Source of the DNA: a virus
Length of the DNA stretch: 59,726 nucleotides
Reading direction: 5' to 3' (one strand)
Virus record (IMG/VR): IMGVR_UViG_3300009285_001239
Location: 1-59,726 of that record
The notes under the pieces were generated by a model. That model worked only from the letters and a program-made list of their open reading frames with translations. It searched no databases and had not been told where the DNA came from. A program made the position numbers and the translations under genes. Each line of letters starts with the position of its first letter. The stretch's first letter is position 1. Positions 9,179 through 54,668 of this stretch are shown piece by piece.

Positions 9179-9184
9179 AGAGCA

Positions 9185-9475: not shown

Positions 9476-9714
9476 GATTCACTCCTTAAGCGTGTGGTCA
9501 CTTGCGCTTGTGCTTTTTGTTGTGCCTCCTGTAATGAGGCTGCTGGCCCAGAAAGAAACGTGTGCCCATCTGTCACATACCAACCCTTAGGTGAGGCTCG
9601 TAATTCCCAGTCTCCCACTATCAGGGTAAAGCATTGCTCTAGTTGGGACACACGTTGCCAAACTGCCGCGTTACCGACGAGCCTTTTTCTTCCGAGGGGA
9701 CTCATCTTCGTCAT
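9466..9714 (-). CDS. Hypothetical protein (82 aa)
   Basis: The N-terminal 14 codons overlap, in another frame, the acidic tail of the gp32-like gene (44-nt overlap). The body has a beta-hairpin-like core, CFTLIVGDWELRASPKGWYV, and a Gln/Ala-rich C-terminal helix. An alternative ATG lies at 9705. Function is unknown. Confidence 0.65.
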   Translation of the reverse strand: MTKMSPLGRKRLVGNAAVWQRVSQLEQCFTLIVGDWELRASPKGWYVTDGHTFLSGPAASLQEAQQKAQAQVTTRLRSESCE

Positions 9715-10672: not shown

Positions 10673-10678
10673 TGCTGA

Positions 10679-11185: not shown

Positions 11186-11414
11186 GGCACGTCTTCCTCC
11201 TAGTAAGTTTTGGTCGTAGTGTCTTTACCTTTTTCTGCCGCTCACGTTCCTTTTGGAATATCTTGAACGGTTTTTGCTTGACTTCATAATCCATAGATCG
11301 TTTCACAGCATCCAGCGCTGTCTTTTCTTCTGTAGATATTCGCCCATCTACTACCAGACGACGAATAAGGCCGACTAGTGGGCCAACGTGATCGTTCGGT
11401 AAATAAATAACCAT
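11163..11414 (-). CDS. Hypothetical basic protein (83 aa)
   Basis: It has an N-terminal helical part (DHVGPLVGLIRRLVVDGRI) and a strongly basic C-terminus (ERERQKKVKTLRPKLTRRK). CAGGAGTCACTC precedes the ATG, and it overlaps the coiled-coil gene by 23 nt. It lies between clamp loader and SSB genes. Function is unknown. Confidence 0.7.
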   Translation of the reverse strand: MVIYLPNDHVGPLVGLIRRLVVDGRISTEEKTALDAVKRSMDYEVKQKPFKIFQKERERQKKVKTLRPKLTRRKTCHVDKRKA

Positions 11415-16648: not shown

Positions 16649-17624
16649 TGATGGTCACTCCTAAAAATTGTTTTTGCACTTGAATGGCTTTCTTAGTCGT
16701 CTTACCCATTACTGACGACCAATACGTTTCCAAGCCCCATAATTCTTTTACTAACTTCCGCTGCATGACATCTATCAAGCAATCCCGATGCTGATTATTG
16801 GTCAGAGGATCACCAGCCAAGTATAGATGATGCCCGGTGAACCCGACCCGATCCTGCCAGTCCTTACGGATCATTTGCATCATCCGATCATACAATACAA
16901 TACCTACCACTGAACGAGCCAGGTGACTCTCCTGCATATCCTTAAAGGTATAGTCACACTCGGCAAATATCTTATCCATGTACTCACGCAACACCGGCGA
17001 GACAGATAAGTAATGCCCATTCTGATGCACCCGCCTGTCAGTAACAATCACCCGCTCAATCGTCACATTTCCTTTCCACCAAAAAGGAACACTGATATGT
17101 CCCATGGCGGCATTGTACCGCCAAGTAATCGAATCCACACTGTACCATGGCCACCGTGCAGCTAACCGCCCTGTCATGGCTAACCCATGCACCCGCGCCC
17201 GTGGATATCCTTTCTTATCGCAGATCAGCTTGAAGGTGGCATCTCCAAACGGGCGGTAGTCAAACCGCTCTTTTACTCCACCCATACCACCAACACAAAA
17301 GTACTCGTAGTTGTCCAGAATCCGCTTCAACCACTTAACATCCGAACGACTGTGGTAAACTGGGAGAGGTTTTAACCCACACGACTCCATGTACTTCAAC
17401 ACTTCCCAGGTAGCCTCTGGATTCCCGATCACATCCAAAGTCAAGTACATCTGCAGTTGATCCTTGAACTGATGTAGTGAACTAATATACCGCTGCAGAT
17501 AATCTTTGAATTGGTGGGTTTTATGAAACCGCCCTTTCAACGAATCGGGCATACCCGCCCCATACTTTTGGTACATCGAAAAAGCTCCCGAGTCGAGAGC
17601 CCACTTAATCCCGTTAGGCTTCAT
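16581..17624 (-). CDS. dpdA: DpdA-like DNA guanine transglycosylase (TGT superfamily)
   Basis: This 347-residue TGT-fold enzyme is predicted to exchange guanine in DNA for a 7-deazaguanine. Visible TGT features are ALDSGAFSMY with Asp11, YLTLDVIGNPE with Asp64, KPLPVYHSRSD, the glycine loop YFCVGGMGGVK, and RARVHGLAMTG. Context supports DNA rather than tRNA as substrate: it follows queC directly and lies among folE and queD, as in phages with 7-deazaguanine DNA. The frame is open to 17771, but the ATG at 17624 gives an 11-nt overlap with queC and starts at the conserved region. No C-terminal zinc site was seen. Confidence 0.85.
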   Translation of the reverse strand: MKPNGIKWALDSGAFSMYQKYGAGMPDSLKGRFHKTHQFKDYLQRYISSLHQFKDQLQMYLTLDVIGNPEATWEVLKYMESCGLKPLPVYHSRSDVKWLKRILDNYEYFCVGGMGGVKERFDYRPFGDATFKLICDKKGYPRARVHGLAMTGRLAARWPWYSVDSITWRYNAAMGHISVPFWWKGNVTIERVIVTDRRVHQNGHYLSVSPVLREYMDKIFAECDYTFKDMQESHLARSVVGIVLYDRMMQMIRKDWQDRVGFTGHHLYLAGDPLTNNQHRDCLIDVMQRKLVKELWGLETYWSSVMGKTTKKAIQVQKQFLGVTINASDDRRRVKIKTGVRERSSSR

Positions 17625-18312
17625 CGGGAAGCTGATGGTGTGTCCACCATAACTTGTAGGTTTCCCATAAGTCTGCCTTTTGTAGACTCTCCCGCATCTC
17701 GATGCAGTGATAACACGTACCACAAGGCATAGGCGCCACTCCATAGCAGTTCCAGAGTCGCCGCAGGTCAACTCCTTGTGTATGCAGGTACGTCAATACC
17801 TTTTCTTTTGGCCATGGTTCCGGGCGAGATAACGGGGCATCGAAACGAATATGCAGGCGCGAGTCTTCTGAGACATGGTCAATCACAGCTTCCAATTTAT
17901 GATAGAACTCAATACCTGTATCTCGAAAGGCATAGTTACTATACTGCACACACTCTGCTGACTTAGTACCCACTATAACAAACTGCAAGCCTAACGACTG
18001 TGCCCAGTTTGCTGCTTGTGCATTGATTACTAAATTTCTGATGGGTACATACGCTGCCGGAACCCCCTCAAACTCGGGAGGCAGACTTCGCATCATGTCA
18101 CACCGAGCAGTTAGCAAGCCCCGAAACCGCGCGCCAAACCGCTGCTTTAAGAACCTCCCAAACCACTCAGCGGCCTTCTGTTCCTTTGCTTCGTACTCAA
18201 CACCATAGGAACTAAAAAAGCCATAACACCTATCCACATTCGATTCAATAAGTACCCGCAATACAGCAGCAGCTGAATCATATCCCCCCGATATATGCGC
18301 CAAGATTTTCAC
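17614..18312 (-). CDS. queC: QueC, 7-cyano-7-deazaguanine (preQ0) synthase
   Basis: This 232-residue enzyme makes preQ0 from 7-carboxy-7-deazaguanine with ATP and ammonia. SGGYDS at residues 8-13 is the N-type ATP pyrophosphatase loop, and VPIRNLVINAQAANWA is the family helix. A C-terminal zinc site is formed by CYGVAPMPCGTCYHC. The start is a GTG that overlaps the aminotransferase stop (GTGA) and follows GGAGGTAGGCCT, so the two are tightly coupled. There is no amidotransferase extension of the Gat-QueC type. Confidence 0.93.
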   Translation of the reverse strand: MKILAHISGGYDSAAAVLRVLIESNVDRCYGFFSSYGVEYEAKEQKAAEWFGRFLKQRFGARFRGLLTARCDMMRSLPPEFEGVPAAYVPIRNLVINAQAANWAQSLGLQFVIVGTKSAECVQYSNYAFRDTGIEFYHKLEAVIDHVSEDSRLHIRFDAPLSRPEPWPKEKVLTYLHTQGVDLRRLWNCYGVAPMPCGTCYHCIEMRESLQKADLWETYKLWWTHHQLPDEA

Positions 18313-19397
18313 AGGCCTACCTCCAGTAATACTGAATGGATTGCCCGATTGAAACCCTCTACCTCTTCGTCAGTGATTGCCCCGATAGTGCATACTTGGA
18401 ATGCCCGTTCATCCCCCGGCATTCCGTAGGTCACATAATACCCGTGGTGAATCATTCGCTGACGAAACTCCGAGTACGAAAGCTTCTCGGGAAGAATAAA
18501 GTTCTGCACTACTCCGGCGCCAAACTTGGGATCAAGCTGTGGCAAAATCCCGGCCCGAATACGTAGAAAGGTTTGAATATCTGCCAACTGACGAGGGATT
18601 CGTTGCTGATGAAATACAATACCCGTACTATTCAGGTATGTACATGCTGCCTCTAAAGCGGAATACAACGCTACCGGTTGAGCAAAGCGGCACATACCAT
18701 TCTTGTCTTGGGCATTGACTTCATCCCATAGATCCAAATAGTAACTAGCACTACGAAACTGCCCAGATACCTCTAAAAAGCTTCTCGAAGCAAACACCAA
18801 CGCCAGCCCCGGGCAAGCCATAATTCCTTTTGACGAAGAAGCCGCCATGACATCCAGGTTAGCATAGTTAGCATTTACTGCCCACGCCACCGAAACAATA
18901 TCAGCCCCTATCCAGGCCCCATACTTTTTGGCTAACTGGGGAAGTTCTACCACCCCATTGAAGATACCCATCCGGGTTTCATGCACCACATAGTATACCC
19001 ACTTATAATCCCCCAACTGCAAACTAGACTCAACCACCGCTGAATCAATCGGGCGATCAAAAGGAAGATTCAAAACTTTAAAATCCAGATTAGCCGCACT
19101 GGCTTGGGTATAAAGACGTTGACCGAAGTACCCATTGACGAGCAGTAATCCTTTTCCCAACGAACTTAAGGCATGCAGACACACTTCATTCGCCGCCGTT
19201 CCTGTACCAGCAAATATCCCGGTGCGGTAATCAGATGACAACTCCAGCAGTGCCTTTGTCTCTTCCCGCACCGCATCGAAGATAGCCTGAAATATCGGTT
19301 CCCGATGATAGATGCAAGGAGGGTTTCCCAACGCGGCCCATACTGACTCGGGAATCTTCAAGGGTCCGGGAGTAAACGGAATCAATTTTCCGACCAT
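18309..19397 (-). CDS. Class V PLP-dependent aminotransferase in the deazaguanine operon
   Basis: At 362 residues it shows fold-type I class V features: PFTPGPLKIP at the start, FAGTGTAANEVCLHAL, YVVHETRMGIFNGV, GADIVSVAWAV with the PLP-ring Asp, and ASSSKGIMACPGLALVF with the predicted Schiff-base Lys. The closest families by motif are 2-aminoethylphosphonate-pyruvate and alanine/serine-glyoxylate aminotransferases. It sits between folE and queC, overlapping queC by 4 nt. That suggests it acts on the modified base or makes its amino donor. The substrate cannot be read from the sequence. Confidence 0.88.
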   Translation of the reverse strand: MVGKLIPFTPGPLKIPESVWAALGNPPCIYHREPIFQAIFDAVREETKALLELSSDYRTGIFAGTGTAANEVCLHALSSLGKGLLLVNGYFGQRLYTQASAANLDFKVLNLPFDRPIDSAVVESSLQLGDYKWVYYVVHETRMGIFNGVVELPQLAKKYGAWIGADIVSVAWAVNANYANLDVMAASSSKGIMACPGLALVFASRSFLEVSGQFRSASYYLDLWDEVNAQDKNGMCRFAQPVALYSALEAACTYLNSTGIVFHQQRIPRQLADIQTFLRIRAGILPQLDPKFGAGVVQNFILPEKLSYSEFRQRMIHHGYYVTYGMPGDERAFQVCTIGAITDEEVEGFNRAIHSVLLEVGL

Positions 19398-19402
19398 GGT
19401 GG

Positions 19403-19948
19403 TTATCCTTTTATCAAGTTAAAGAATTCAGCGCGGGCTGCTGGGTCTTTAAGGAAAGCCCCTTGAAGAGCTGAGGTCATAGTAACATGCCCCTGCTTTT
19501 GAATCCCTCGTGCCTCCATACAAAGATGGCGACATTCCAGCACTACTGCTACCCCTTGTGGATTTAGAGCTTCCCATAACGCATCAGCTATTTGACGCGT
19601 AAGACGCTCTTGCACCTGCAACCGTCGAGCAAAGATATCCACTACCCGACTGATCTTACTCAACCCTACGATCTTCCCGCTAGGGATATAGGCCACATGC
19701 GCTACTCCGAAAAAAGTAGCCAGGTGATGCTCACACATACTATAGACTGGAAGGGCTTTGAGTAGGACCATTTCGCTATACCGTTCTGCCCCATCTTCAA
19801 ATACCCGCAGAGCCTCTTCTGGTTTTTGTGAATAGCCCTGCGTAAGGAACTGCATGGCTTTTAGATACCGCTTTGGTGTTTCCTTCAATCCTTCACGGTT
19901 GGGGTCATCTCCCAAGTAAGAAAGAAGTCGACGAATTTCGTCCTCCAT
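19403..19948 (-). CDS. folE: FolE, GTP cyclohydrolase I
   Basis: This 181-residue enzyme converts GTP to dihydroneopterin triphosphate, the first step of 7-deazaguanine synthesis. It has [16 protein letters not shown], the zinc ligands in [11 protein letters not shown] and [32 protein letters not shown] and QIADALW. An ATG at 19948 is preferred over a GTG at 19951 because it lies 7 nt after GAGGA. The 133 nt before it hold no convincing gene. Confidence 0.96.
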
Positions 19949-20081
19949 CACTGAATCCTCAAAAGAAAAAGGGTACTACCACAGTATCCGACGCAGGAGC
20001 CATAAATGTATGGCATTGCCCTCGACTCGGCAGTCTCGTGGTTTGCAGCAAAGCGTACTGTGGGTTCCCCTTGAGTTGTGG

Positions 20082-20933
20082 TTACTTCTTGATCTTCCCT
20101 GCTTCGAGCAGATCCTTGTAGACGACCTGGAAGGAAGCATACCAACCACGGATCGAGCTGTCCTTCACATCAGTGAAGCCGCCCTTCTCCAACTTCGCTT
20201 TGATGGCTTCAAAGCTCATGGTGGGATTTGCTACCAGGAGAGACCGCACCTTGGCACTTGCCGAGCCGCCTTTTTTCTTGGCCGGCTTTTCCTTCTTGAC
20301 TTCCTTCTTACCGACTTTCTTCTTGGCCGGCTTCTCGTCTTCTTCTTCTTCGTCTTCTTCGTCTTCTTCGACTACCTTCTTGACGGGCTTCTTGCCTTTG
20401 ACCGCTGGCTTTTCCTTCTTCTTCACCGAAGACTTTTTCGAAGGCTTCTCATCTTCGTCCGCATCTTCGTCTTCTTCGCCGTCAGCTTCTTCAGCTTCAT
20501 CTTCGTCTTCTGAATCCGCGTCGTCAGATTCAGAATCTTCCTCGTCAGCTTCTTCAACCTTGGGTTTTTTCTTACCCTTACCCGGCCCTTTGGCTGCTTT
20601 CTTCTTTGCTGCTGGAGCTTCCTCTTCGTCTTCCTCGGCTTCGTCTTCATCTGCTTCCTCCTCGCTGTCTTCGGACTCTTCGTCCTCGTCTTCGTCACCG
20701 ACTTTCAGGCCGTCTTCGAAACTGGGAATGGTTTCCTGCTCGTTGACTGCCGCGATCGCCGCCGTTGCCCACTTCTGTGAATCCTTGGAGAGCTCTTCGA
20801 ACTCGTCGTCCTTCATAGCATTGATAAGGTCAACCAATTCTTCGAAGTACGACTCGGGACTGGTATAGTCGGCCCGCTTGATACCAGTCACGTTCTCCAA
20901 CTCCTTCTGTACTGCCACACTCGCTTTTGACAT
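20082..20933 (-). CDS. Three-part protein with acidic/basic low-complexity centre
   Basis: This is a 283-residue protein. Residues 1-75 form an acidic helical domain (SVAVQKELENVTGIKR, FEELVDLINAMKDDEFEELS). Residues 76-220 are alternating Glu/Asp and Lys blocks such as EEDEEEAPAAKKKAAKGPGK. Residues 221-283 are a small globular domain (VRSLLVANPTMSFEAIKAKL, then SIRGWYASFQVVYK) that resembles a winged helix. It may bind DNA and partner proteins, but no function is known. It lies between queD and folE. The plus-strand Ser-rich frame opposite the repeats is an artefact. Confidence 0.8.
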   Translation of the reverse strand: MSKASVAVQKELENVTGIKRADYTSPESYFEELVDLINAMKDDEFEELSKDSQKWATAAIAAVNEQETIPSFEDGLKVGDEDEDEESEDSEEEADEDEAEEDEEEAPAAKKKAAKGPGKGKKKPKVEEADEEDSESDDADSEDEDEAEEADGEEDEDADEDEKPSKKSSVKKKEKPAVKGKKPVKKVVEEDEEDEEEEDEKPAKKKVGKKEVKKEKPAKKKGGSASAKVRSLLVANPTMSFEAIKAKLEKGGFTDVKDSSIRGWYASFQVVYKDLLEAGKIKK

Positions 20934-20957
20934 TGTGAATAGACTCCTTTTGGTTAG

Positions 20958-21392
20958 TTAAAGATAAGCTTCCCCCAACCACTTTCTGGTTTCTTCTCCT
21001 CCCCCCTTCCCCATTTTAAGTCCTTCCGGTAATGACCAATCCCGCCGAAGTAAATACTCGGCCATGTTTTCAGCAGTCGGATTGAAGGGTACCAAGATAA
21101 CACCATCCGAGTTAAGTTGCAAGAGGGCAGCAGATACCGGATCTTCTTTCCATACCATGAACCGGTGATCCCAATTATCTTCTACCCACTGGCACAAGAT
21201 TGACTTGATTACCCCAAAATCCAGTACCCGCCCGAGACTATCTAATTCTACAGCCCCTTCTGCTTGGAATCCTCCTTTCACTGTAAAGTGAACTCGATAG
21301 TTGTGCCCGTGGAAATGCCGACACTTCGACTCATGCCCGTAAACTCGATGCCCTGCTGAAAAGTCATGAAACCGTGTAGCTGAAATTGGCAT
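20958..21392 (-). CDS. queD: QueD, 6-carboxytetrahydropterin synthase
   Basis: This 144-residue enzyme of the PTPS family makes 6-carboxy-tetrahydropterin from dihydroneopterin triphosphate. It has FSAGHRVYGHESKCRHFHGHNY with zinc His residues and the catalytic Cys, LDFGVIKSIL, DNWDHRFMV, NPTAENMAEYL, and a late Glu-Thr in GGEETRKW. CGGAG lies 7 nt before the ATG. It is the second enzyme of the preQ0 pathway encoded here. Confidence 0.94.
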   Translation of the reverse strand: MPISATRFHDFSAGHRVYGHESKCRHFHGHNYRVHFTVKGGFQAEGAVELDSLGRVLDFGVIKSILCQWVEDNWDHRFMVWKEDPVSAALLQLNSDGVILVPFNPTAENMAEYLLRRDWSLPEGLKMGKGGGEETRKWLGEAYL

Positions 21393-21404
21393 ACATACAC
21401 TCCG

Positions 21405-22385
21405 TTATAGATACGACAGAAACTGCTTGACTGCTTTCTTATTCATCGCACCAAAGTCTTTCCATGGTGCTGGACAGCAATTTATACCTACCACTCGTCG
21501 TCCATCTATTTGCCGAGCCACATGCAGCGCTTCAAACTCAAACTCGTTATCGAATCCCACCGTTACTTTATCGAAGTTGACACTGTAGTTCCACAAGATC
21601 TGTAACTGCTCTGCTGTTGGAGCTATTCCACATAAAGCAACCGCACGAATTCCCTGCTCTGCTCCATATAGATCCAGCTTAAGGGCATCTACTGGGCCTT
21701 CTGTGATTACTAATACCTTCCCAAAAGTTAGTAAGGCGTCGTAGTTAAACAGGGTGGACTTCAAATCCACTACACTCTCAGCAACCGGTAGGTTTTTATA
21801 GCGCAGTTCGGCCTCTGGATAAATGGATCTAGCTGTAAACGTAACTACTTCTCCATTCTCAAATACTGGAAAGATGACGCGGTCTTTATACTCGCCCGAT
21901 ATCCCTGCCCTCAGTGTATATCGAGAGATCACAGTTTTAGTTGACTCAGCAAACCGCGAACGAAGATATCGGTAAACCCGTTTAGTAGCTACATCAGTAG
22001 TAGATATCTTACGAAACTGGGATAGAAGGACTTCTTGCTGTGACTTGACTTTGGATACGGGAACTTGTGTAAGACTACTGACTACGTCCTGCATACTATT
22101 TGGATTCATTACTACCGCCGACCCATCCAGCATATCGTAGGCTAACGAAATACTACACCCCAGTACCTGTGCTACCAATATCGCCGGGTTCTTTCCTCGA
22201 TGGACCGCTGATCGCCAACAGCCATAATACCCAGTCTGTTTATTGACCCCTAGGTGCCAAGAAGGGTCGTTATCTCCACACCACGGACAACGTAGATTAA
22301 AATTCCCCCGCGCTACGTTGGGTCCGCTTTCCACGCACTCGACATTATGGGCCCGGAAAACTTCCAGCACCTTTTCACCAATCAT
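21405..22385 (-). CDS. DnaG-type primase (zinc finger plus Toprim)
   Basis: This 326-residue primase has an N-terminal zinc motif, CPWCGDNDPSWH followed by YYGCWRSAVH (Cys33, Cys36, His44, Cys56). The Toprim domain has VLVITEGPVDALKLD near residue 229 and VTVGFDNEFE near the expected metal-binding Asp. It is shorter than bacterial DnaG (about 580 aa) and lacks an obvious helicase-binding domain, as in phage primases. Its ATG overlaps the SNF2-helicase stop (ATGA). Confidence 0.9.
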   Translation of the reverse strand: MIGEKVLEVFRAHNVECVESGPNVARGNFNLRCPWCGDNDPSWHLGVNKQTGYYGCWRSAVHRGKNPAILVAQVLGCSISLAYDMLDGSAVVMNPNSMQDVVSSLTQVPVSKVKSQQEVLLSQFRKISTTDVATKRVYRYLRSRFAESTKTVISRYTLRAGISGEYKDRVIFPVFENGEVVTFTARSIYPEAELRYKNLPVAESVVDLKSTLFNYDALLTFGKVLVITEGPVDALKLDLYGAEQGIRAVALCGIAPTAEQLQILWNYSVNFDKVTVGFDNEFEFEALHVARQIDGRRVVGINCCPAPWKDFGAMNKKAVKQFLSYL

Positions 22386-25344: not shown

Positions 25345-27102
25345 CTATGGAAGATCTAACAACTTATGAAGTTGCAAACTTATTCGATACCCGTATCGTA
25401 AAGCGATGTCTTTAGTTAATTGAATGTTCCTCTTGGTTTTCTCCTCGTCATGCTCGTCGCATGGTTGAACATATACTGGGACCCCCCCATACGGGCGCAT
25501 CAGCTTATGCTCAGTATGTGTGTATGGTTTCAATGATTCAGGCACATCCCACTGCGTACCGATCAGTGGTAGCCCATCATCCATACTTACTTGCCCTTCT
25601 CGAATGATGTACTTGAAAGCGGTAGCCCGTTTATAAACATGAGGGTTCAGTACGGGAGTCTTGGGAGAGACCACAATAGATAACGCCCCGCTCGCCAGTA
25701 GTTCTTCTACTCGTTCTCTTTCTTCAGGCACTACCCACTTTGTTCCTGCCGTCTCTACCTGCGTGCAAATGTTATTTACTGCTAACAGAGCTACGAAGGG
25801 AATGAAATTTTGCAGGAAGGGTTCCCCACCTGTCAACACTACCCAACGCACCGGTGTCCCTTCCATTTTATGCTTTACCAGATAAACCAAGTTTTGAATA
25901 CTTATTGGTTCTCCTGTCTCGAATTCAGTATCGCAATTATGCGCTAAAACTGAATTCGCAAAATATGTATGAGTATCTTCTACCTCCAGATTGTAAACTT
26001 GAATTTTTCTAGTCAACGATCCCGCTAATCTAGCATAGGCTTTAGGATTACTAAGACTAGTGATATGCTCAATTTTTGTAACCTTAGCTCCATTATGAAC
26101 TATTTCGGATAAAGAGCTAATCAGTTGTCTAAGAGCTAGCACTCGCCCCGATCCATACGGCAAACCTAGGCTTCTAGCCTTAGGAGCTTGTACTGGAAGA
26201 CAGTACAAGCTATATCCTCGTTTCGAGAAATAGGCTTTTCTCTTTTTCTGCCATAGAAGATCTCTGCCTAAATACTCTGTCTGCTCACCAGACCAGACGT
26301 CTATCGTCTTGTTCGTTCCCAGCACTAAAAAATCAGGACAGTACCGCCCCACGAACAGCTTGCCATTTCCCACATATTTTATTGGAAGTTTAGCTTCCTC
26401 AACTGCTTGTATTACTAACTTTTCAATTGAAGAAATACTATGCTTTCTATTCTTATAAGAAGCGATAGCAACCGAATCCTGGCGCATGGGGTTGTCCGTC
26501 TTCATTCTTCGTTTAACTATTTTTCCTATATTAGTAGTTCTCCAAGTTTTCTTCATGCGTTTGCTAGACGCTACCCGAGCACCATTACTACGCACTCTTC
26601 GCAGCATAGCAGAGTGAACATGAGAAAGGGTAATCGGATTTCTTATGGTCATTCTATCACTTTGAGTTAATTCAAAAAGGATATCCCCTTCTTGTAACTT
26701 TCCAGCAGTGACCCAACCCTTACCAACTACGTATAAGGGGTGCTCGCTAGTAACATACAAACTTTTAGATCCTGTGTGTATCTTAAGTATCGAATTTACT
26801 TGACGGGTCCACACATTAGTTACTTTCTTTTTTACTATTTTACTTAAGTCGTTATCATAACTTAAAACCATAGTTCCTTTGAGAATATCCTTAATCCTTA
26901 CTTTAACCCCACTAGCAGTTTGGATCCACGTGCTACCACTAAAACAAAAGGTGCAACGTAAGTTGCAACCAGTCAATCGGACAAAAATAGCGGGGGTGCC
27001 AGATAGTGGCCCCTCTCCCTGAATAGTTTTGAAAACTGAGTTAACTGTTAACGCAACACCTGCTGCGTTAGACGAACCAACTAGTTTATTTTTTCCAAAC
27101 AC
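25345..27102 (-). CDS. queE: QueE, 7-carboxy-7-deazaguanine synthase, interrupted by an intein
   Basis: The 585-residue precursor splits into an N-extein (1-52), an intein (53-389) and a C-extein (390-585). Joined exteins give a 248-residue radical-SAM enzyme with KTIQGEGPLSG, GCNLRCTF-CDTEF and VVLTGGEPFLQ, converting carboxytetrahydropterin to 7-carboxy-7-deazaguanine. The intein lies between residues of the CxxxCxxC iron-sulfur motif, so the enzyme should be inactive until splicing. The start is a GTG 5 nt after AAGGAG. It is separated from queD by the helicase and primase genes. Confidence 0.93.
   Translation of the reverse strand: MFGKNKLVGSSNAAGVALTVNSVFKTIQGEGPLSGTPAIFVRLTGCNLRCTFCFSGSTWIQTASGVKVRIKDILKGTMVLSYDNDLSKIVKKKVTNVWTRQVNSILKIHTGSKSLYVTSEHPLYVVGKGWVTAGKLQEGDILFELTQSDRMTIRNPITLSHVHSAMLRRVRSNGARVASSKRMKKTWRTTNIGKIVKRRMKTDNPMRQDSVAIASYKNRKHSISSIEKLVIQAVEEAKLPIKYVGNGKLFVGRYCPDFLVLGTNKTIDVWSGEQTEYLGRDLLWQKKRKAYFSKRGYSLYCLPVQAPKARSLGLPYGSGRVLALRQLISSLSEIVHNGAKVTKIEHITSLSNPKAYARLAGSLTRKIQVYNLEVEDTHTYFANSVLAHNCDTEFETGEPISIQNLVYLVKHKMEGTPVRWVVLTGGEPFLQNFIPFVALLAVNNICTQVETAGTKWVVPEERERVEELLASGALSIVVSPKTPVLNPHVYKRATAFKYIIREGQVSMDDGLPLIGTQWDVPESLKPYTHTEHKLMRPYGGVPVYVQPCDEHDEEKTKRNIQLTKDIALRYGYRISLQLHKLLDLP
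25936..26946 (-). mobile_element. Intein in QueE with EDxHD/Vsr-like endonuclease domain
   Basis: This is a 337-residue element. It starts with Cys53 (CFSGSTWIQT, block A), has block B SLYVTSEHPLYV with Thr118-x-x-His121, and ends with block F VYNLEVEDTHTYF and block G NSVLAHN followed by the +1 Cys. Between the splicing halves are a basic, NUMOD-like stretch (MKTDNPMRQDS near 200-209) and a nuclease-like domain with Glu226, YCPDFLVLG (Asp257), TIDVWSG (Asp268) and RDLLWQKKRKAYF (Asp281), ending in GYSLYCL. That order resembles the Vsr/EDxHD homing endonucleases rather than LAGLIDADG. Whether the nuclease is active is not known. Confidence 0.88.
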
Positions 27103-42185: not shown

Positions 42186-43142
42186 TTAGTAGTTAGACTT
42201 CGTATTGAACAACGACACCTTTACCGCTTGAGCGCTACCTGAATGATAGCGGGCCATTGCTTCGAACTGCACCGTCAACCGCTCACGCCCAGGCATACCC
42301 GTCGGAAAAGTTTTGTAAACCACGCGGGGCATATCTACCTTCATAGAAAAGCTATTGGCCCGGGTAAAGTTAACAACAAAGGCTTGCTCCGTCTGGTTGA
42401 CAAAATTGGTATACTCCGTCAGGTTATCGAAGCCAATGGTACCAGTCAAGTTAAGCACCTGCGGAGCCGTCCGCATAAGCTTGGCTGGGTATACCGAAGA
42501 GTTCAACCGGGCGATTCCTTCCACCCCTACATTAAAGTCCAACGACAATGCTTCCAGTAAAGCATTACCCGCCCCACCAATCGAGATAGAACAAGTATCA
42601 AAAGCAAAGGGAAAGGTTGGTGAGGTTGGGAAGGTAGGGCTACTCTTAGCAATCACACTGACCGCTCGTGCTACCATGTGCGCCGTACAACGAAGATCTT
42701 GGTTCGGCTGCACCGCCATCGTAAACCTCGATACCGCTCCACCGGTATACTGAAACGCACTAGTCACATCTCGAAAAATCTCGAACGTATACGGAGGAAT
42801 CGGACTATCCGTCGAAAAGTCCGTGAGTGCAAAAGTGAAGTCGTTTTGGTACAAAAATCCAGACAGCACTGTACTGCCAGACATCGTACCCAACACCGAC
42901 CGCAAAAAGAAGCCCAACGGGATCGGGTGCCCAGGAAAGACAATATCTCCTTCTGCTCGAAGGATCCCGGACATATCATCAGCCATATACATACGCCCAC
43001 CGATAATATTCTTCACGTCAAACCGATCAATCGCCAGTGTTAGATTCTCACTATATGCTTCTAGAAAGTCTGTCGCCGCGACTGCGGTTCCCCACACTGT
43101 TTCTTTGGCTAATCCAATATGCCCTGCAAAACCGTACGACAT
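42186..43142 (-). CDS. Major tail tube protein
   Basis: This 318-residue protein begins GFAGHIGLAKETVWGTAVAA, the usual start of a tail-tube family, with EALSLDFNVGVEGIARLNSS and LTVQFEAMARYHSG near the end. It is beta-rich throughout. It precedes the chaperone and tape measure. Its leader holds an AGGCGT/ACGCCT hairpin (about 43153-43186) just before AAGGAGG. No sheath protein is adjacent, supporting a non-contractile tail. Confidence 0.85.
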   Translation of the reverse strand: MSYGFAGHIGLAKETVWGTAVAATDFLEAYSENLTLAIDRFDVKNIIGGRMYMADDMSGILRAEGDIVFPGHPIPLGFFLRSVLGTMSGSTVLSGFLYQNDFTFALTDFSTDSPIPPYTFEIFRDVTSAFQYTGGAVSRFTMAVQPNQDLRCTAHMVARAVSVIAKSSPTFPTSPTFPFAFDTCSISIGGAGNALLEALSLDFNVGVEGIARLNSSVYPAKLMRTAPQVLNLTGTIGFDNLTEYTNFVNQTEQAFVVNFTRANSFSMKVDMPRVVYKTFPTGMPGRERLTVQFEAMARYHSGSAQAVKVSLFNTKSNY

Positions 43143-43186: not shown

Positions 43187-43639
43187 TTAAACAGTAGTAG
43201 CTTTTACGTCTGCTACCAGTACCACTTCACCACCACTCATGAACCCAGTATTACCCGGAATCCGTCCAGAGGGCATTTCTCCGCCCTCCAACCACGAAGT
43301 CGATACGTTATTAGTTATTGTTCTATTCTTCATCAAAGCCACCTCTACTTTACCTAGTATGTCGTCCCGCTTGTGGATGGCCTCTTCAATCGACTCCAAC
43401 GTAAACGCCCAACACCAAATACTAAACCGACACAGCATCCGGGTACTGATTCCTGCCCCGATACCCTGCATATCTGCCGGGGCATCACGCCGGTCTAAAT
43501 AAATTCCGACCCACGGTGCTGCCTCTGCCCCAAACATCAGCTCTGCCTCTACGGTAACTGTAGTGCCAGTTAAAGTAGCATCGGCTTGCAACAACGTCTG
43601 CAAAGCTTTCTCAATAGCATAATAATCAACTCTAGCCAC
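43187..43639 (-). CDS. Tail terminator-like protein (150 aa)
   Basis: It starts VDYYAIEKALQTLLQADATL and has EAAPWVGIYLDRRDAPAD and SIEEAIHKRDDILGKVEVAL. Size, alpha/beta layout and position just before the tail-tube gene fit the gpU-type terminator that caps the tail. It overlaps the upstream gene by 8 nt. The assignment rests mainly on position. Confidence 0.7.
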   Translation of the reverse strand: MARVDYYAIEKALQTLLQADATLTGTTVTVEAELMFGAEAAPWVGIYLDRRDAPADMQGIGAGISTRMLCRFSIWCWAFTLESIEEAIHKRDDILGKVEVALMKNRTITNNVSTSWLEGGEMPSGRIPGNTGFMSGGEVVLVADVKATTV

Positions 43640-44183
43640 CAGAGCTCTCTGCCTTTGCTAACTGCACTGCCCGATCAATATAGGCCTGCACTATTTGCTC
43701 AGCCATCAACTGCGCAGCCTGCAGTGATGGTAACAACGGGCGTGACGGTAATCCCGGATGATGCACCTCTCGTCGCATAATCTGACCACTCATTGTCCAA
43801 AACCGCAACGCCTTTCCATGCACTGGGCGAATAATATATGGGCGCGTACCAAAATGGTGGTACGCAGCATAGGGGTTTTCCGTACCCACTATAACTGCAT
43901 CCGAACCAATCACCTTCATCCCCGCCGAACCAAACGATACGAACGACTGACGCATCAGCGGGAAAATATCCTTTCCGGCCTGCTTGGGATCAGACCGAGA
44001 GTTAGGCCGTAACTTAGCCCATGGTTTCTCGATACCCTTCGCCTTGAAGTTTTGATCTATCCAGTAAAGATAACGCATACCAATCAATTTAAGTATTGCC
44101 ACAGGGTTGATCGCCCGTCGGACTCGCGCTAACTCTTTTTGCGCTTCCGTAGTATCCAACTCTATGACCAAACCAACACCCAT
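43632..44183 (-). CDS. Phage virion morphogenesis protein (Mu gpG-like)
   Basis: This 183-residue protein has TTEAQKELARVRRAINPVAI, WIDQNFKAKGIEKPWAKLRP, ENPYAAYHHFGTRPYIIRPV and HHPGLPSRPLLP. These are the marks of the phage virion morphogenesis/tail-completion family (Mu gpG, P2 gpS). The family acts at the head-tail joint. AAGGAG lies before the ATG. Confidence 0.85.
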   Translation of the reverse strand: MGVGLVIELDTTEAQKELARVRRAINPVAILKLIGMRYLYWIDQNFKAKGIEKPWAKLRPNSRSDPKQAGKDIFPLMRQSFVSFGSAGMKVIGSDAVIVGTENPYAAYHHFGTRPYIIRPVHGKALRFWTMSGQIMRREVHHPGLPSRPLLPSLQAAQLMAEQIVQAYIDRAVQLAKAESSGG

Positions 44184-44185
44184 GG

Positions 44186-44677
44186 TTAACTCCTTGTTGC
44201 GTCAATGTCGTCAAGCATACTAGGATCTTGAATCATATCTTCCCATGCCCCATCGTGCATAGTAGGATAACGATCCTGCTTATCAGACCAGACATCTGCC
44301 ACGTCACTCCGACCTTGCACTATCTGCCCACTACTATCCACCAGAGCTACCTTTCCAGAAGCGATCTCATTCAGTAAGTCAATGGCCGACTTGAACCTGT
44401 CCGGCCATACTGAATCATTAATCTTCTCTTGCGTAAAAATACGCTTAGTCAATATCTCGTATAACGAGATATCTATCGCCAACGTTTGTACAACTGGCGG
44501 AGCATCAGAAAACGGAACTTGATAAAGCTTGGCTAACTTGGAGTCAATCAGAGCTTGCGCTCCCTGAATGAAAAAAGCCAACGTTGCTGACGTAATGGTT
44601 GATACCGAACCAATCGCCGGAACCGTCATAGTCAGATCCCCCACCACACAATAACTCACCGGTAGTGTAATAGGCAT
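44186..44677 (-). CDS. Head-tail connector (DUF1320, Mu gp36-like)
   Basis: This 163-residue helical protein has TLAFFIQGAQALIDSKLAKL, VVQTLAIDISLYEILTKRIF and YKSAIDLLNEIASGKVAL-type segments, the order seen in Mu gp36-like connectors. The C-terminus is acidic. AAAGGAGG precedes the ATG. It starts the joint-and-tail block. Confidence 0.8.
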   Translation of the reverse strand: MPITLPVSYCVVGDLTMTVPAIGSVSTITSATLAFFIQGAQALIDSKLAKLYQVPFSDAPPVVQTLAIDISLYEILTKRIFTQEKINDSVWPDRFKSAIDLLNEIASGKVALVDSSGQIVQGRSDVADVWSDKQDRYPTMHDGAWEDMIQDPSMLDDIDATRS

Positions 44678-44692
44678 CTGACTACCTCCTTT

Positions 44693-47587
44693 CTACCAAA
44701 CCTGGCCTACTGGAAACTGGGCCAACTTTTCCTTCGTACGCGCTAGGATCTCTACTTCTGCATCCTCGTTAGAAGCAAACCGATACACTGACGTACCATT
44801 TACCTGCGCTTTATCCTTAGAGGCCGCCATCTGAAATGCCACCTCTATACCTTTACCCAACATCGTGACTGCCTGCGAATAATACTGCAACGAGTCAATA
44901 TGTGCGTAGTGCGGCTTACCCAAGAAATACTTACGATACAGTGAGATCGTCTCGTCACAGCGATGCTTGATCTCGTCGGTTACTTTACCTCCATTCTGCT
45001 GGAGCTCATACATGGATAATAACATATTATCCCGCATAATGAAATGCTTCTGGAGGATTCGATCCGGGTACTTCTCGATATCTTTTTTCAGTAATGGATA
45101 GTTACGCTCAAACCGCTTCCGACGAATATCCTCAACCAGATAACCCAGATGAGCAATATGCGCGTCAGATATAACTATAGTACTACCCGGACCCTCATTC
45201 AATACTTTTTCCGGGTGCTCATGGATCATACCAAACCAACGCAAGCCCCGACCATTACGAAATAACCGTACTGGCATATCTGGGTCAAAGTGAGTATCTA
45301 CAGCAAAGTGGTGCTGGCGAATGGAATACCCATCATGGCAATTCCACCGTAGGTACTTGTGAATATACCTGGCTCCCAGTAACTTCTCGTCAGTATCCAA
45401 CCACAAAATCCAATCCATGGTGCAGTGCTGGAGCCCCTCATTACGGGGAGTTTCAAATCCAGCTTGCTTAGGATCGCTACCTTTGACTAACTTAGCTCCA
45501 TAGCTAATAGCTATAGCCTGTGCTTCTGCAGACAAACCACAGTCCACTATAATCAACTCATCCTGCACATCTACCAACGCTTCTAAGCACCACCGTAAGG
45601 TTTGCTCACTGCCCGGTCCGGCTATCATGTTGACCGACACTGTTTCCCGAGGCCGCACTAACGATACCTTACGAACCATATCAATAGGATTGCAGTCAGT
45701 CCCATCTACCTGATACTCAATCCAGAACCAACCTTGTGGATCACCAGTCACCTCACTGATAAAAGCGGGCTGCGTACTAAGTGATAGTTTTGGCTTACCT
45801 CGAAACATATCCCGAAGATCGTGCATATCGAACTCCCAGATATGGGCACGATATGGGCTGGTGCGATAACTTGCATATTCCCACGGGCCATAAGGAACTG
45901 TGGCTAAAAACCAACCGCTTGGCTTTACATACCGCTGTAACTCTGTTGCTAAAACCCACGGCTCTGGAACATGCTCAAGGATCTCAAAGGCGAATACCGC
46001 ATCAGCTTTTTCGTAGTTAAGAGCAGTAAACTCAGTAGAACTGTAAAATAATACGTTATCCGGGTACTTAGCATTTTTGACTTTGTTTCGTTGTGCCCGG
46101 TCAAGAATACTTGCATCCAAATCCACACCAATGACTTTAAGATCTGGGCGCAGATTACTCAATTCAATAGTAAAGGCACCATGAGCACACCCGTAGTCAA
46201 TCAGAGTCTTTACTTCTAGATGCTGTAATAACCACATCCGCACTTCTTGAAAACGAGGAGCTTCCCCAGCAATTAAACCGTAGTACTCATCTTGCCGCTC
46301 AGTGCCGACCTCTTGGTACTGCTCAGCATAAATCTTCTGATACTGGCCTTCGTAATCCCCCGTATCCACAAACCCCCACTGCTTAGTCAACTCAGTCTGC
46401 ACGCTTTCTAACTGATGCTGTTTAGCCAGTTCTCGTGCCACCATGATATTTGAATGACGCATAAAATGCCGAGCCCTAGTTTCAGGGGTGCCTTTTCTAG
46501 CAGAAAGCTCCTTAAAGAACATATCTGACCACTGCTGCGCCACCGCCGCCCAATCAAGAGTGGCTGCCTTTTCCAAACCAGCTATCGACGCCGCTTTCCA
46601 TAACTGGTCATTTTGCACATACGAAAGCACCGCTTGACTAAATAGTTCTGCATAGGAATCTTCCCAAGGAGATCCAGGAATAAGCACGCCTGCTCCAAAA
46701 GCAATTGTTTCCCGTAGCGCTCCACGATCCGTAGTGACAATAGGAAGCCCAGCCGCTTGTGCTTCCATTGCCGAAATACAACTAATTTCAGCAAAGTCCT
46801 CGTTAATCTGCGATGGTGTTGGGTACACATACACACCGCAGCTTTTATAAAGCTTGACCAAATCTGCTTTATTTAATTCCCCATGCCACACGACCGAAGG
46901 TCCATAGCGTTTCATAAGAGAATCTAAAGCTTGGTAAAATCCAGCTAAATGCTCTACTGGATTCTTATACGAGCAAAGATGTAATGTGATCCCAGGCTCC
47001 TGCTTCAAGAGCTTGGGTAAAATTCGTTCCAGTAGATTATCTAATCCTCGCTCTGGGCGGGCAGCATAAACCAATGCTTTACGATCACGAATAGCAGTAC
47101 CGGCTTGCGTATTGAATAGTTCGCAATCAATACCATTACGCGTAATAAATAGAGTATCATCTGATAAGCCATACGTCTGCTTATACTGCTCTCGCATGAA
47201 CTCAGATAACACCACTATCTTATCTGTATTCCACAACACCCCACGAATAGTGCTAACCTGTCTACCTAAAGCTAGGTCGTGGCACCACAGAATATTCAAC
47301 TTGGAAGCGTGTCGACGAGCAAAGGTTTCTGGGATTCGTTGTACGATAGCCACATCATGGGGGTTCATACGCTGGTGAAGCTCATACTCAGCTATCGAGC
47401 GATAAACTACCCCCTCAAATCTTCCAGGAGCTCCATTAGAGAATACAGTTACATAATGTCCCAATTTAGCCAGCTCCTTTGCTAAGTAATACCCAGCAGT
47501 TTCGGAACCTCCTAAACTTTGCTGGGTAGCGGTTTCACCATTAAATGGTAAACCAGGAACATACAAACTTATATCTAATTTCTGCAT
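44693..47587 (-). CDS. Glycosyltransferase - methyltransferase - glycosyltransferase fusion
   Basis: This 964-residue protein has three enzyme domains. Residues 1-380 are GT4-like (QQSLGGSETAGYYLAKELAK, AARPERGLDNLLERI, ISCISAMEAQAAGLPIV). Residues 430-640 are a SAM methyltransferase with TLIDYGCAHGAFTIELS near 464 and VIGVDLDASIL. Residues 650-870 are GT2-like with ELIIVDCGLSAEAQAIAI, PRNEGLQHCTMDWILWLDTD (a DxD motif) and RLFRNGRGLRWFG. The C-terminus is helical. Embedded among virion genes, it may modify virion proteins or host glycans. The acceptor is unknown. Confidence 0.9.
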   Translation of the reverse strand: MQKLDISLYVPGLPFNGETATQQSLGGSETAGYYLAKELAKLGHYVTVFSNGAPGRFEGVVYRSIAEYELHQRMNPHDVAIVQRIPETFARRHASKLNILWCHDLALGRQVSTIRGVLWNTDKIVVLSEFMREQYKQTYGLSDDTLFITRNGIDCELFNTQAGTAIRDRKALVYAARPERGLDNLLERILPKLLKQEPGITLHLCSYKNPVEHLAGFYQALDSLMKRYGPSVVWHGELNKADLVKLYKSCGVYVYPTPSQINEDFAEISCISAMEAQAAGLPIVTTDRGALRETIAFGAGVLIPGSPWEDSYAELFSQAVLSYVQNDQLWKAASIAGLEKAATLDWAAVAQQWSDMFFKELSARKGTPETRARHFMRHSNIMVARELAKQHQLESVQTELTKQWGFVDTGDYEGQYQKIYAEQYQEVGTERQDEYYGLIAGEAPRFQEVRMWLLQHLEVKTLIDYGCAHGAFTIELSNLRPDLKVIGVDLDASILDRAQRNKVKNAKYPDNVLFYSSTEFTALNYEKADAVFAFEILEHVPEPWVLATELQRYVKPSGWFLATVPYGPWEYASYRTSPYRAHIWEFDMHDLRDMFRGKPKLSLSTQPAFISEVTGDPQGWFWIEYQVDGTDCNPIDMVRKVSLVRPRETVSVNMIAGPGSEQTLRWCLEALVDVQDELIIVDCGLSAEAQAIAISYGAKLVKGSDPKQAGFETPRNEGLQHCTMDWILWLDTDEKLLGARYIHKYLRWNCHDGYSIRQHHFAVDTHFDPDMPVRLFRNGRGLRWFGMIHEHPEKVLNEGPGSTIVISDAHIAHLGYLVEDIRRKRFERNYPLLKKDIEKYPDRILQKHFIMRDNMLLSMYELQQNGGKVTDEIKHRCDETISLYRKYFLGKPHYAHIDSLQYYSQAVTMLGKGIEVAFQMAASKDKAQVNGTSVYRFASNEDAEVEILARTKEKLAQFPVGQVW

Positions 47588-48625: not shown

Positions 48626-48864
48626 AATATCTCCTGCTCCAGAATCAGATGCGCCGGGTCGGCGGCGATCTGGGCCAGCACAGCATCTTCGCAGACGATC
48701 TCGCACACCAGCATGTTTGGCGAGGGCGATAGCTGCTCCGCCGCTTGTCCGGTGATGTCCCGACAAGACTGATGCGGGGTGTCGAACAACGCCGGGTAGT
48801 GCACGATATTGCCTTCCGCGTTCGTACGCTGCTTCCAGTATGTTATGACTTGCGCTTTAATCAT
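48622..48864 (-). CDS. Small protein (80 aa)
   Basis: The ATG at 48864 overlaps the upstream stop (ATGA). It has IKAQVITYWKQRTNAEGNIV, CRDITGQAAEQLSPSPN, then MLVCEIVCEDAVLAQIAADP. The tail (AHLILEQEIL) recalls small proteins next to phage structural genes. No function assigned. Confidence 0.7.
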   Translation of the reverse strand: MIKAQVITYWKQRTNAEGNIVHYPALFDTPHQSCRDITGQAAEQLSPSPNMLVCEIVCEDAVLAQIAADPAHLILEQEIL

Positions 48865-49508
48865 GTGGCTGTCACCGTGAAATCGTCCCAAGTAGAAATG
48901 CCGCTTGAATAGCTGGAGTCTTTACCAATGCCGCACTTCGTCACCGCCGCTAGAAAGGACGATGTATAGCTGGCGCTGTTTCCCAATTCATTACGAATTG
49001 TCAACTGGCTTCCGCCATCCTCAACTTCCGCCCAGTTAGCAATCGTTGTCGGGTTATCGGCAATACTCGCACGCATGCTAAGGACGCCGCCGCTCACTTC
49101 GATTAGCTTGACTGTATTAACTCCTCCAGTGAGTATCCGCGCTGCCAACCAGTAATTGGCGTCGGACTGATACCGAATAAAAACGCCCACTTCGGCGCCG
49201 CCGAAATTGGTAGCATCAGTCATGGTGGCGCGTACCTTAACTGGTGCTTGTCCTATCTCGACCGCATAGCCAGCGGCACTGAAACTCGAACTGCGTTGCA
49301 CCTTATTAGTCTGAACGGTATGCGCCACGCTGCCTAATTGTACCCACCCGTTCCCCGGCAGATTAGTTGGCGCTATGGTGTGTGCGCTGAGCGCCGTGGT
49401 ATCGGCGTCGGTGAACGTATCCGAGATCAGAAGCGTGCCAGCCGGATAGCCACTCGGACGTGGCCTCCGCGTGAATCCTAGCCCCAGACCAAGACCGAGT
49501 GATGGCAT
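48861..49508 (-). CDS. Beta-rich virion surface protein (215 aa)
   Basis: After a Gly-rich start (SLGLGLGLGFTRRPRPSGYP) the sequence runs SDTFTDADTTALSAHTIAPT, VFIRYQSDANYWLAARI and WAEVEDGGSQLTIRNELG, a jelly-roll or lectin-like pattern found in phage tail and head-fibre proteins. It is joined to the upstream gene by TGATG. It may decorate the capsid or bind glycans. Confidence 0.7.
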   Translation of the reverse strand: MPSLGLGLGLGFTRRPRPSGYPAGTLLISDTFTDADTTALSAHTIAPTNLPGNGWVQLGSVAHTVQTNKVQRSSSFSAAGYAVEIGQAPVKVRATMTDATNFGGAEVGVFIRYQSDANYWLAARILTGGVNTVKLIEVSGGVLSMRASIADNPTTIANWAEVEDGGSQLTIRNELGNSASYTSSFLAAVTKCGIGKDSSYSSGISTWDDFTVTAT

Positions 49509-49848: not shown

Positions 49849-50175
49849 CTACGAGGTGTACTCCAAGCGCCACATGATGGTCGAATTAAATGCCCGACCT
49901 ACACCATCGGCCCACCCCATGGTAAACGAATTACCCGGGTTGATCGAAGTGACCACACACGGAGCCCCAAACCCGGAATTCTGCAACGTAGATAACTGTA
50001 AGGTATGGTGCACCAGCATGTCCGACTTGGCACAGGTGGTTGAAATTACCGCCGTCGCCTGCCCTGAACTGAGGGTCGTACGCCCGGCCCACTGATTAGC
50101 CCGACTCTGCGCCTGCGTGGTGAGTGGCCCGCGTAATTCTGGGGCGTAAAGTTGCTCGAGTGTTTGCTTTCCCAT
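49849..50175 (-). CDS. Small virion-module protein (108 aa)
   Basis: It has LTTQAQSRANQWAGRTTLSS, QATAVISTTCAKSDMLVHHT and NPGNSFTMGWADGVGRAFNS then IMWRLEY. I recall the pattern (TTLSSG-x-A-x-VIST...SD) from small structural proteins after capsid genes. AGGAG lies 9 nt before the ATG. Role unknown. Confidence 0.7.
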   Translation of the reverse strand: MGKQTLEQLYAPELRGPLTTQAQSRANQWAGRTTLSSGQATAVISTTCAKSDMLVHHTLQLSTLQNSGFGAPCVVTSINPGNSFTMGWADGVGRAFNSTIMWRLEYTS

Positions 50176-50380: not shown

Positions 50381-51328
50381 TTACAACGTACCCGTGATGG
50401 CGTAGGCCAGAGCCGGGGCGATTACCTTCTCGTCCTGGTAATAACCCGCTTCCAGCACTTCGGCCTTGGCACCCGGATCAGGATGGGCATAGCGTACCAC
50501 CGACATGGGAGAAGGCGTACCCGCCGGCTGCCACTGAAAGGCCAGACCAAACGTTGCCGTTTCCAAGCTAACACCTGGAACTACCCGACACAGAAGCATG
50601 TTGTTGCCCCAGATATTGGTCAGGCTCGCCGTCGCGTTTTCTACCGCGTTGTTGAGAATACCCTTACCGATCAGGAGACGATCCACCGAGAAGCACTTGG
50701 CCAGTTCTGAATCGGCCACAAATCCGCCCGACGTGTACTTATACATGTCGAGAAGAGCCGGGTGCCGGCGTACCACTGAGTACGTATCCTGATCCATAAC
50801 CAGAGTGTTTGGTACCAAACCCGTATTCTGGCGAATAAAGGCATGCCCGGTAGTAACAACCCCGATGGGATCTGAGTTGATGAAGTCCGAGAACTTCGCC
50901 GTACCCGTCAGAGCCACACCCGAACCCACATTACTGATCGAGGTGACCATCTGAGCAATACGCTGCTCCAACCCCCGCAGTAACCCATCCACCACATTCA
51001 TGGTGTGCGAATCACGCAGGCGCAAGGCTGCATCCGCATTGGCCAGATCTTCCACCGACATCTCGGCCGCCAGCGCATGGTTGTCGCAGTAATACGCATC
51101 CGAACTGACCAGGAAGTCAATACGGCGCGGTGACGTCTTGGGAGCTCGTAACGTCTGATGCACCCGCAGCCAGGTGTTCTTGTCCACGGTGTAGTACTTC
51201 CCGCTTTGTTTCGCTACCGGAACAGATGGGAATAGAGCCGTTCCAATATAGGTGTCGGTACTTTGAAATGCCCTAACCGCCATATTGGTCAGTGGTACGT
51301 CAAAGTATAAATCGCGTCCTGTGGGCAT
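50381..51328 (-). CDS. Major capsid protein
   Basis: This 315-residue protein starts DLYFDVPLTNMAVRAFQSTD and has IGTALFPSVPVAKQSGKYYT, GLLRGLEQRIAQMVTSISNV, NTLVMDQDTYSVVRRHPALL and QDEKVIAPALAYAITG. These are typical for HK97-fold capsid proteins of this type. TAAGGAGG precedes the ATG. It follows decoration and protease/scaffold genes, the expected order. Confidence 0.88.
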   Translation of the reverse strand: MPTGRDLYFDVPLTNMAVRAFQSTDTYIGTALFPSVPVAKQSGKYYTVDKNTWLRVHQTLRAPKTSPRRIDFLVSSDAYYCDNHALAAEMSVEDLANADAALRLRDSHTMNVVDGLLRGLEQRIAQMVTSISNVGSGVALTGTAKFSDFINSDPIGVVTTGHAFIRQNTGLVPNTLVMDQDTYSVVRRHPALLDMYKYTSGGFVADSELAKCFSVDRLLIGKGILNNAVENATASLTNIWGNNMLLCRVVPGVSLETATFGLAFQWQPAGTPSPMSVVRYAHPDPGAKAEVLEAGYYQDEKVIAPALAYAITGTL

Positions 51329-53729: not shown

Positions 53730-54668
53730 TTAAATCCGCCCTTGTCTTACCCGCTCCATGTACGGGACAATTTGCGCCAAACACGCTTCGTGTTCCCGTC
53801 CATAAACACTGGCTCCACACTTGATTATCTGAAACATGATAAGCGGTGAAGAACCCCACCGTTCATAGAACAAGGCTTCTCCCTTGGCTATTTCCTCATG
53901 CCCTTCCATACCCCGCTTCTTGATCGTAAGATGGTTCAAGTGATGTACTTGCACACCACAGTGACGATAGGCCCGTAACCCGGCGGTATAGACACGCATC
54001 AGTAAATCCGAGTCTGAATAACCCCCGTTAAAGGCTTCATCCAACTCCCATCCTTTACGAAAGGCCATGATTGGTGTATAACTACCCTCCACGATCAATC
54101 CCGGGATGGGGTGGGCTGGACCGACGAACGCTCCCGGCTCAGCCGTAGCGACTGATGATAGTCCACAGTCTGGATACCGTTCAAACGGCTCAAGTAACGC
54201 TTCCAACCACCCTTCGGTAACCAAGATATCATTACCCATGAATACTTGAATATCTCCCGACGCTGCTCGTAACCCAGTATTATGATCTTTGACTACCGTC
54301 GTCTTCTCGGGGCAGTGAATGTACTTGTCCACCCGCAGATCTGGATCTGCCAATGAGCTCCATGACAACTTCTCGAAGTGCTTTGTTCCTGTCTCCACCA
54401 ACACCAGTTCATAAGGCAATTTAGTACTCACCCGCATAGTCTTGATGCACAACTCCGTCAACGCGATTAGAAATGGGTCGTCTCCTACCATTACTGGTAG
54501 CACTACCGAAAAGGTATACGGCCTTCCAGGAGGGTCTTCTAATAACTCTCCACACGCATCCCCTATGACCCGCCACACATCGGTCATATCTGCGGACTCA
54601 GCATAGCACTTAGCCCGTACTTGCCGTACCCCTCGCTCCAACCGATCCAGTCTTTCTTGCATAGACAT
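53730..54668 (-). CDS. GT2-family glycosyltransferase
   Basis: This 312-residue protein has a helical N-terminus (QERLDRLERGVRQVRAKC) and then YTFSVVLPVMVGDDPFLIA, YELVLVETGTKHF, DHNTGLRAASGDIQVFMGND and FNGGYSDSDLLMRVYTAGLR. These are GT2 features: nucleotide-binding strand, the N-x-G acceptor turn, a DxD-like GND and an E/D-D catalytic region. It lies upstream of the protease, so virion or capsid glycosylation is possible. Confidence 0.82.
   Translation of the reverse strand: MSMQERLDRLERGVRQVRAKCYAESADMTDVWRVIGDACGELLEDPPGRPYTFSVVLPVMVGDDPFLIALTELCIKTMRVSTKLPYELVLVETGTKHFEKLSWSSLADPDLRVDKYIHCPEKTTVVKDHNTGLRAASGDIQVFMGNDILVTEGWLEALLEPFERYPDCGLSSVATAEPGAFVGPAHPIPGLIVEGSYTPIMAFRKGWELDEAFNGGYSDSDLLMRVYTAGLRAYRHCGVQVHHLNHLTIKKRGMEGHEEIAKGEALFYERWGSSPLIMFQIIKCGASVYGREHEACLAQIVPYMERVRQGRI

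Follow-up and report, generated by a model that had tools for sequence, protein, structure and literature searches.

The window, i.e., the whole 59,726-nucleotide stretch of an IMG/VR virus record that was analysed, encodes a protein in which a GT4 glycosyltransferase, a methyltransferase and a GT2 glycosyltransferase are joined in one chain, and this fusion belongs to the core genes of one clade of uncultured siphoviruses. The protein is probably a soluble cytoplasmic enzyme that glycosylates a virion protein of the phage itself, with the GT2 domain starting the glycan, the GT4 domain extending it and the methyltransferase capping it. Judging from the three domains, a methylated oligosaccharide is a reasonable expectation for the product.

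The fusion protein and its three domains

The first-pass annotation had described a 964-residue GT4 - methyltransferase - GT2 gene. Its coordinates proved exact, its three domains are intact according to Pfam, and its strand is the minus strand. The open reading frame starts with an ATG at 47587 and ends with the stop codon at 44693-44695; the plus strand of the same interval has no open frame and many stops. The gene and its domains are as follows.

44693..47587, minus strand: GT4-methyltransferase-GT2 fusion, 964 aa (from the ORF, Pfam, conservation and AlphaFold2)
46496..47587, minus strand: GT4 domain, residues 1-364, GT-B fold, with E267-x7-E275, the GGSE loop (26-29) and RPERG (177-181)
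45668..46414, minus strand: class I SAM methyltransferase, residues 392-640, with motif I D464-Y-G-C-A-H-G470 and the acidic D489
44696..45667, minus strand: GT2 domain and C-terminal helical part, residues 641-964, with D731-T-D733-E734 and H789-E790-H791-P

The Pfam matches, every one of which exceeds its curated cut-off, are Glyco_transf_4 (residues 26-156), Glyco_trans_1_4 (172-307), Methyltransf_23 (456-596) and Glycos_transf_2 (661-735). An AlphaFold2 model calculated from a 31-sequence alignment reached a pLDDT of 90.3 and a pTM of 0.89, with weak spots mainly in the linker near residues 410-440 and in a loop near 570-580. Invariant or near-invariant in this alignment are E267-x7-E275, the GGSE loop and RPERG of the GT4 domain, D464-x-G-x-x-x-G470 and D489 of the methyltransferase, and D731-x-D733-E734 and H789-E-H-P of the GT2 domain. 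The first domain thereby has the features of a retaining GT-B enzyme of the GT4 type (E267 and E275 invariant in the 31 sequences, Pfam above cut-off), the second those of a class I methyltransferase (D464, G466, G470 and D489 invariant or nearly so; PF13489 at 52 bits versus a cut-off of 27) and the third those of a GT-A enzyme of the GT2 type (D731-x-D733 invariant; PF00535 at 26.8 versus 23.3 bits). In comparisons with GT4 enzymes, MshA among them, the GT4 domain reached VIA Z scores of 28-34 (best 33.9 over 339 residues), and its fold relatives include MshA, HepE, BshA and many more; the predicted fold as such says nothing about the acceptor. A hydrophobic segment of the membrane-helix type was not found in the fusion protein.

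Inteins favour the active sites of indispensable proteins. Five relatives of the fusion contain one (L007, L010, L013, L037 and L041; HNH in three): that of L007 splits GG from SETA in the GT4 loop motif, that of L041 lies within E-x7-E, and those of L010, L013 and L037 are placed immediately before I-H-E-H-P. Because of this preference, the insertions at three catalytic motifs of the fusion lend independent support to the importance of these motifs. In a further relative (L009, 1653-4717) GT4 and methyltransferase-GT2 are encoded by two overlapping ORFs with a TGATG junction; either the gene has split naturally, or this is an unfused form, or the sequence contains an error. A GT4 domain on a separate, overlapping ORF implies that the single chain is not essential.

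Conservation and place in the capsid-neck operon

Searches of IMG/VR yielded 13 loci in a first scan and 49 in a profile scan, and nearly all of these loci either are cut by contig ends or hold the fusion in full, at 34-52% identity; the same fusion is present in about 45 uncultured viral contigs. A gene artefact was ruled out by this conservation, which extends over dozens of independent contigs and leaves the active-site residues invariant. Among GenBank phages no full-length fusion was found (tblastn, E 1e-5), the seven matches being at the level of GT4 only, with a coverage of 20-35%. The fusion was also absent from plasmids, which gave partial matches only, covering at most 43% of the methyltransferase-GT2 query. 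The search of genome contigs returned one bacterial contig, L015, in a Patescibacteria bin. This contig was rejected as a bacterial homologue, as it is phage DNA with the same neighbours as in L005, and among 287 genomes of the phylum of that bin only that of L015 and an unrelated phage, L194, matched at E 1e-30. Two pieces of an L005-like phage (L015, L191 and L192; G012) are found inside the Patescibacteria MAG, either as a hint at the host or as a binning error.

The gene had been placed by the first-pass annotation between the head joint and the head genes, which agrees with the adaptor (phrog_195) on one side and the major head protein (phrog_1005) on the other. A head maturation protease is also among its structural neighbours in the window, together with the following genes.

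50381..51328, minus strand: major capsid protein (phrog_1005, 4.6e-69)
44186..44677, minus strand: head-tail adaptor (phrog_195, 1.5e-13), its start 15 nt past the stop of the fusion
43632..44183, minus strand: tail completion / neck protein (phrog_26, 1e-12)
42186..43142, minus strand: tail tube protein (PF18906, 3e-21)

Nearly all loci with enough flanking sequence show the order protease, decoration protein, major capsid protein, small proteins, (variable genes), fusion, adaptor, tail completion, terminator and tail tube, and in 33 of the 49 loci the fusion overlaps the adaptor gene or is separated from it by no more than about 30 nt. Additional searches used the capsid and tube proteins as queries in order to limit bias. 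Regarding the 45 non-identical loci that hold both capsid and tail tube genes, the fusion lies between them in 24 (8 of which were retrieved by the capsid or tube query alone) and is absent from 21, the latter representing a more distant outgroup with the same gene order. Accordingly, all 24 clade loci that span capsid to tube contain the fusion, versus none of the 21 outgroup loci. The gap between capsid and tube measures 4.5-16 kb with the fusion, whereas it is mostly 1.5-3 kb without it (near 5 kb in one case). No glycosyltransferase is annotated at the corresponding place in Arthrobacter phage Ottawa, Vibrio phage 13VV501A and Microbacterium phage ValentiniPuff, which are cultured and have a related capsid protein; the tail tube protein was unmatched among GenBank phages. 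As an exception, the copy of one phage (L047-L050, L056), 35% identical, stands beside SbcC/SbcD/RecA-like genes instead. A 537-aa protein without a match to the fusion stands immediately before the adaptor in L140, and the fusion was not seen upstream of the tube gene in L124; both are short contigs and ambiguous. The place of the gene in the virion operon constitutes no more than an association with virion proteins.

Proposed glycan synthesis and possible acceptors

Because the fold search with the whole model was dominated by the GT4 domain, the GT2 part was folded separately (pLDDT 90.8). The resulting model matched SunS and ThuS with VIA Z scores of 19.5-21.4 over 264-269 residues, including the helical C-terminal part; the alignment spans residues 1-314 of the 324 in the model, i.e., the SunS/ThuS-type fold extends beyond the GT-A core. 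For other GT2 enzymes the Z score did not exceed 14.9, with about 160-210 residues aligned, and TarP, TarS and RmlT are among the lower-scoring kin. A profile of the domain compared with the PDB placed GmaR (8e-23), ThuS (2e-15) and SunS (5e-13) on top, followed by chondroitin synthase (2e-9). The fusion GT2 is not called SunS, because it scores 18.1 bits with the SunS equivalog family TIGR04195, versus a curated cut-off of 350. GmaR transfers GlcNAc onto flagellin (PMC9638930), and SunS and ThuS transfer a sugar onto Cys or Ser of peptides (PMC6405829). Among solved structures, the fusion GT2 is nearest to these polypeptide glycosyltransferases, a shared fold not being proof of function.

Genes for sugar metabolism and transfer accompany the fusion. 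The separate GT2 gene that had been noted in the window was confirmed:

53730..54668, minus strand: separate GT2-family gene, 312 aa (PF00535, 8e-8)

A second GT2 is present in L041, L078 and L005. Relatives of the gene at 53730-54668 immediately precede the fusion in L005 and L010, and one is close to the fusion in L041, where a further methyltransferase adjoins the second GT2; L078 has putative methyltransferase ORFs. In L010 the fusion is preceded by a UDP-glucose dehydrogenase, a B12-binding radical SAM protein and a GT2, and followed by an FkbM methyltransferase. A cassette of about 4.6 kb (L039, 11128-15703) between fusion and head-tail adaptor encodes a UDP-glucose dehydrogenase, a C-methyltransferase, another methyltransferase and a GDP-mannose-4,6-dehydratase-like protein. 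Sugar-nucleotide genes beside the fusion are understandable if the enzyme builds a variable glycan and depends on nucleotide-sugars to do so.

We propose the following course of the reaction, including its order of steps, sugars, linkage and purpose. The virion protein would be modified before or during assembly. Most likely, a nucleotide-sugar would serve as donor for the SunS/ThuS/GmaR-like GT2 domain, which would attach the first sugar to a side chain of a protein of the capsid, decoration, neck or tail. The GT4 domain would then add a second sugar, and the methyltransferase would O-methylate and thereby cap the glycan. The purpose would probably be shielding of the surface or tuning of adsorption.

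Two genes between capsid gene and fusion encode proteins rich in Ser and Thr:

49849..50175, minus strand: small protein specific to the clade, 108 aa, 23% Ser+Thr, in most cases encoded between the capsid gene and the fusion
48861..49508, minus strand: 215-aa protein, 22% Ser+Thr, from the variable slot that separates capsid gene and fusion

The 108-aa protein accompanies the fusion in many loci, had no match among GenBank phages and no solved relative, and is a candidate acceptor by its position and composition. Tentatively, the fusion may be a one-protein glycan assembly line (polypeptide initiation, elongation and methyl cap) that is an obligatory core of the capsid-neck module of the clade and has as its target a dedicated small head protein rich in Ser and Thr, such as this one. 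In other phages the slot between capsid and fusion holds Laminin_G_3 proteins (L004 and, just under the cut-off, L031). Directly before the fusion in L006 (5081-6262) it contains a glycosyl-hydrolase-like protein (Glyco_hydro_cc, 2e-12), possibly a virion depolymerase, and upstream of the fusion in L007 (190-1398) a TnpB/OrfB-like IS605 gene.

Other acceptors have to be weighed against a virion protein. The enzyme might alter a host surface polysaccharide (LPS, capsule or teichoic acid) and thereby block superinfection or adsorption to debris; the GT4 folds include WaaG (LPS) and TarM (teichoic acid), the weaker GT2 relatives named above act in its favour, and O antigens with methyl-capped polysaccharides are known (PMC2943079). 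This is nevertheless unlikely, as the GT2 domain with its helical tail matches peptide glycosyltransferases much better than polymer glycosyltransferases, the gene is locked between capsid and neck genes in the late block, and the fusion shows no membrane segment. Lysogenic conversion is not evident either, since a tyrosine-type integrase was found neither in the window nor in four of the five other long records (the L039 record has one); lysogenic serotype conversion was rejected on the integrase and membrane-segment results. Quite improbable is the glycosylation of a host protein such as flagellin or pilin, changing motility or receptor display during infection. It would be in line with the flagellin glycosyltransferase GmaR as the top solved relative of the GT2 profile, but GmaR has TPR and anti-repressor parts whereas the fusion has no Pfam TPR match, and the link to capsid-neck genes is constant across a diverse clade.

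The first-pass annotation had suggested a virion protein or modified DNA as the acceptor. The latter, i.e., addition of a methylated sugar to 7-deazaguanine or hydroxymethyl-pyrimidine in the phage DNA, draws on DNA-modifying viral glycosyltransferases cited in PMC12619734 and on these genes of the window:

16581-22385, minus strand: 7-deazaguanine set of tRNA-guanine transglycosylase/DpdA-like (phrog_887), QueC, FolE-like and QueD
25345-27102, minus strand: QueE-like radical SAM protein with an intein (Intein_splicing, 4.5e-14)

A class V aminotransferase lies within the 7-deazaguanine region, at 18309-19397. The intein of the QueE-like protein is apparently inserted within the CxxxCxxC cluster motif, before the third Cys (CNLRCTF / CDTEFETG). 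Among the 11 other fusion-bearing records (several partial, six of 52-90 kb), none contains DpdA or, above the cut-off, QueC. The thymidylate-synthase/hydroxymethylase family PF00303 is absent from all 12 records including the window, so that the co-encoded hydroxymethylase typical of DNA glycosyltransferases acting on hydroxymethyl-pyrimidines is missing. DNA glycosylation was rejected as the main role on these three results, and with the GT2 kin being polypeptide enzymes it appears highly improbable. The virion-protein part of the earlier claim is supported by the clade-conserved position, the SunS/ThuS/GmaR-type GT2 and the adjacent sugar-nucleotide genes in relatives.

Relation to known systems

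Virion glycosylation is known from few phage isolates. According to PMC12363180 and PMC12619734, mycobacteriophages Che8, Corndog and Myrna have virion glycans on capsid and tail tube, with Che8 gp110, Corndog gp38 and the Myrna GT as the enzymes (Freeman et al. 2023, cited therein). As described there, those systems likewise use phage-encoded glycosyltransferases, whereas here three catalytic domains, a methyltransferase included, are united in one protein; no mycobacteriophage record is among the seven tblastn matches of the fusion at E 1e-5. With SunS, ThuS and GmaR, its best PDB profile matches, the fusion shares the GT2 core and the DXD motif, and with SunS and ThuS also the helical C-terminal part, but it is only about 17% identical, adds GT4 and methyltransferase domains and is encoded in a virion operon, not in a glycocin or flagellar locus. 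WsaE of Geobacillus stearothermophilus, a trifunctional enzyme of S-layer glycan synthesis (PMC2943079), is likewise soluble and combines two glycosyltransferase domains with a sugar O-methyltransferase in one protein; the glycan capped in this way is meant for a protein surface layer. However, the WsaE methyltransferase is N-terminal, whereas the order here is GT4-methyltransferase-GT2, so that the architecture is not WsaE-like; WsaE uses lipid-linked polyrhamnose and ABC export, whereas the fusion has no evident lipid or export step.

The unrelated phage L194, a contig in another genome of the phylum of the L015 bin with terminase-like, portal-like and major head (phrog_1328, 1e-59) genes, encodes a 776-aa GT2-TPR-GT4 protein (8864-11194) downstream of the head gene, from which a single small ORF separates it. 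It is followed by another GT4, a DegT sugar aminotransferase, two GT2-looking genes and then structural-looking genes. As in the fusion, a related GT4 (E 1.9e-47) and a GT2 of broadly similar type form one chain downstream of the major head gene and among sugar genes; unlike in the fusion, the order is swapped, a TPR linker is present, a methyltransferase domain is absent and the capsid is of another family. This is a case of convergence, with the same two activities again beside a capsid gene.

The fusion could find use as a tool for building a glycan on a protein, from the first sugar through extension to the methyl cap, with no need of lipid carriers or export. With three steps in one chain that is core to a whole uncultured clade and encoded next to the capsid gene, the acceptor can be guessed and the guess can be tested.
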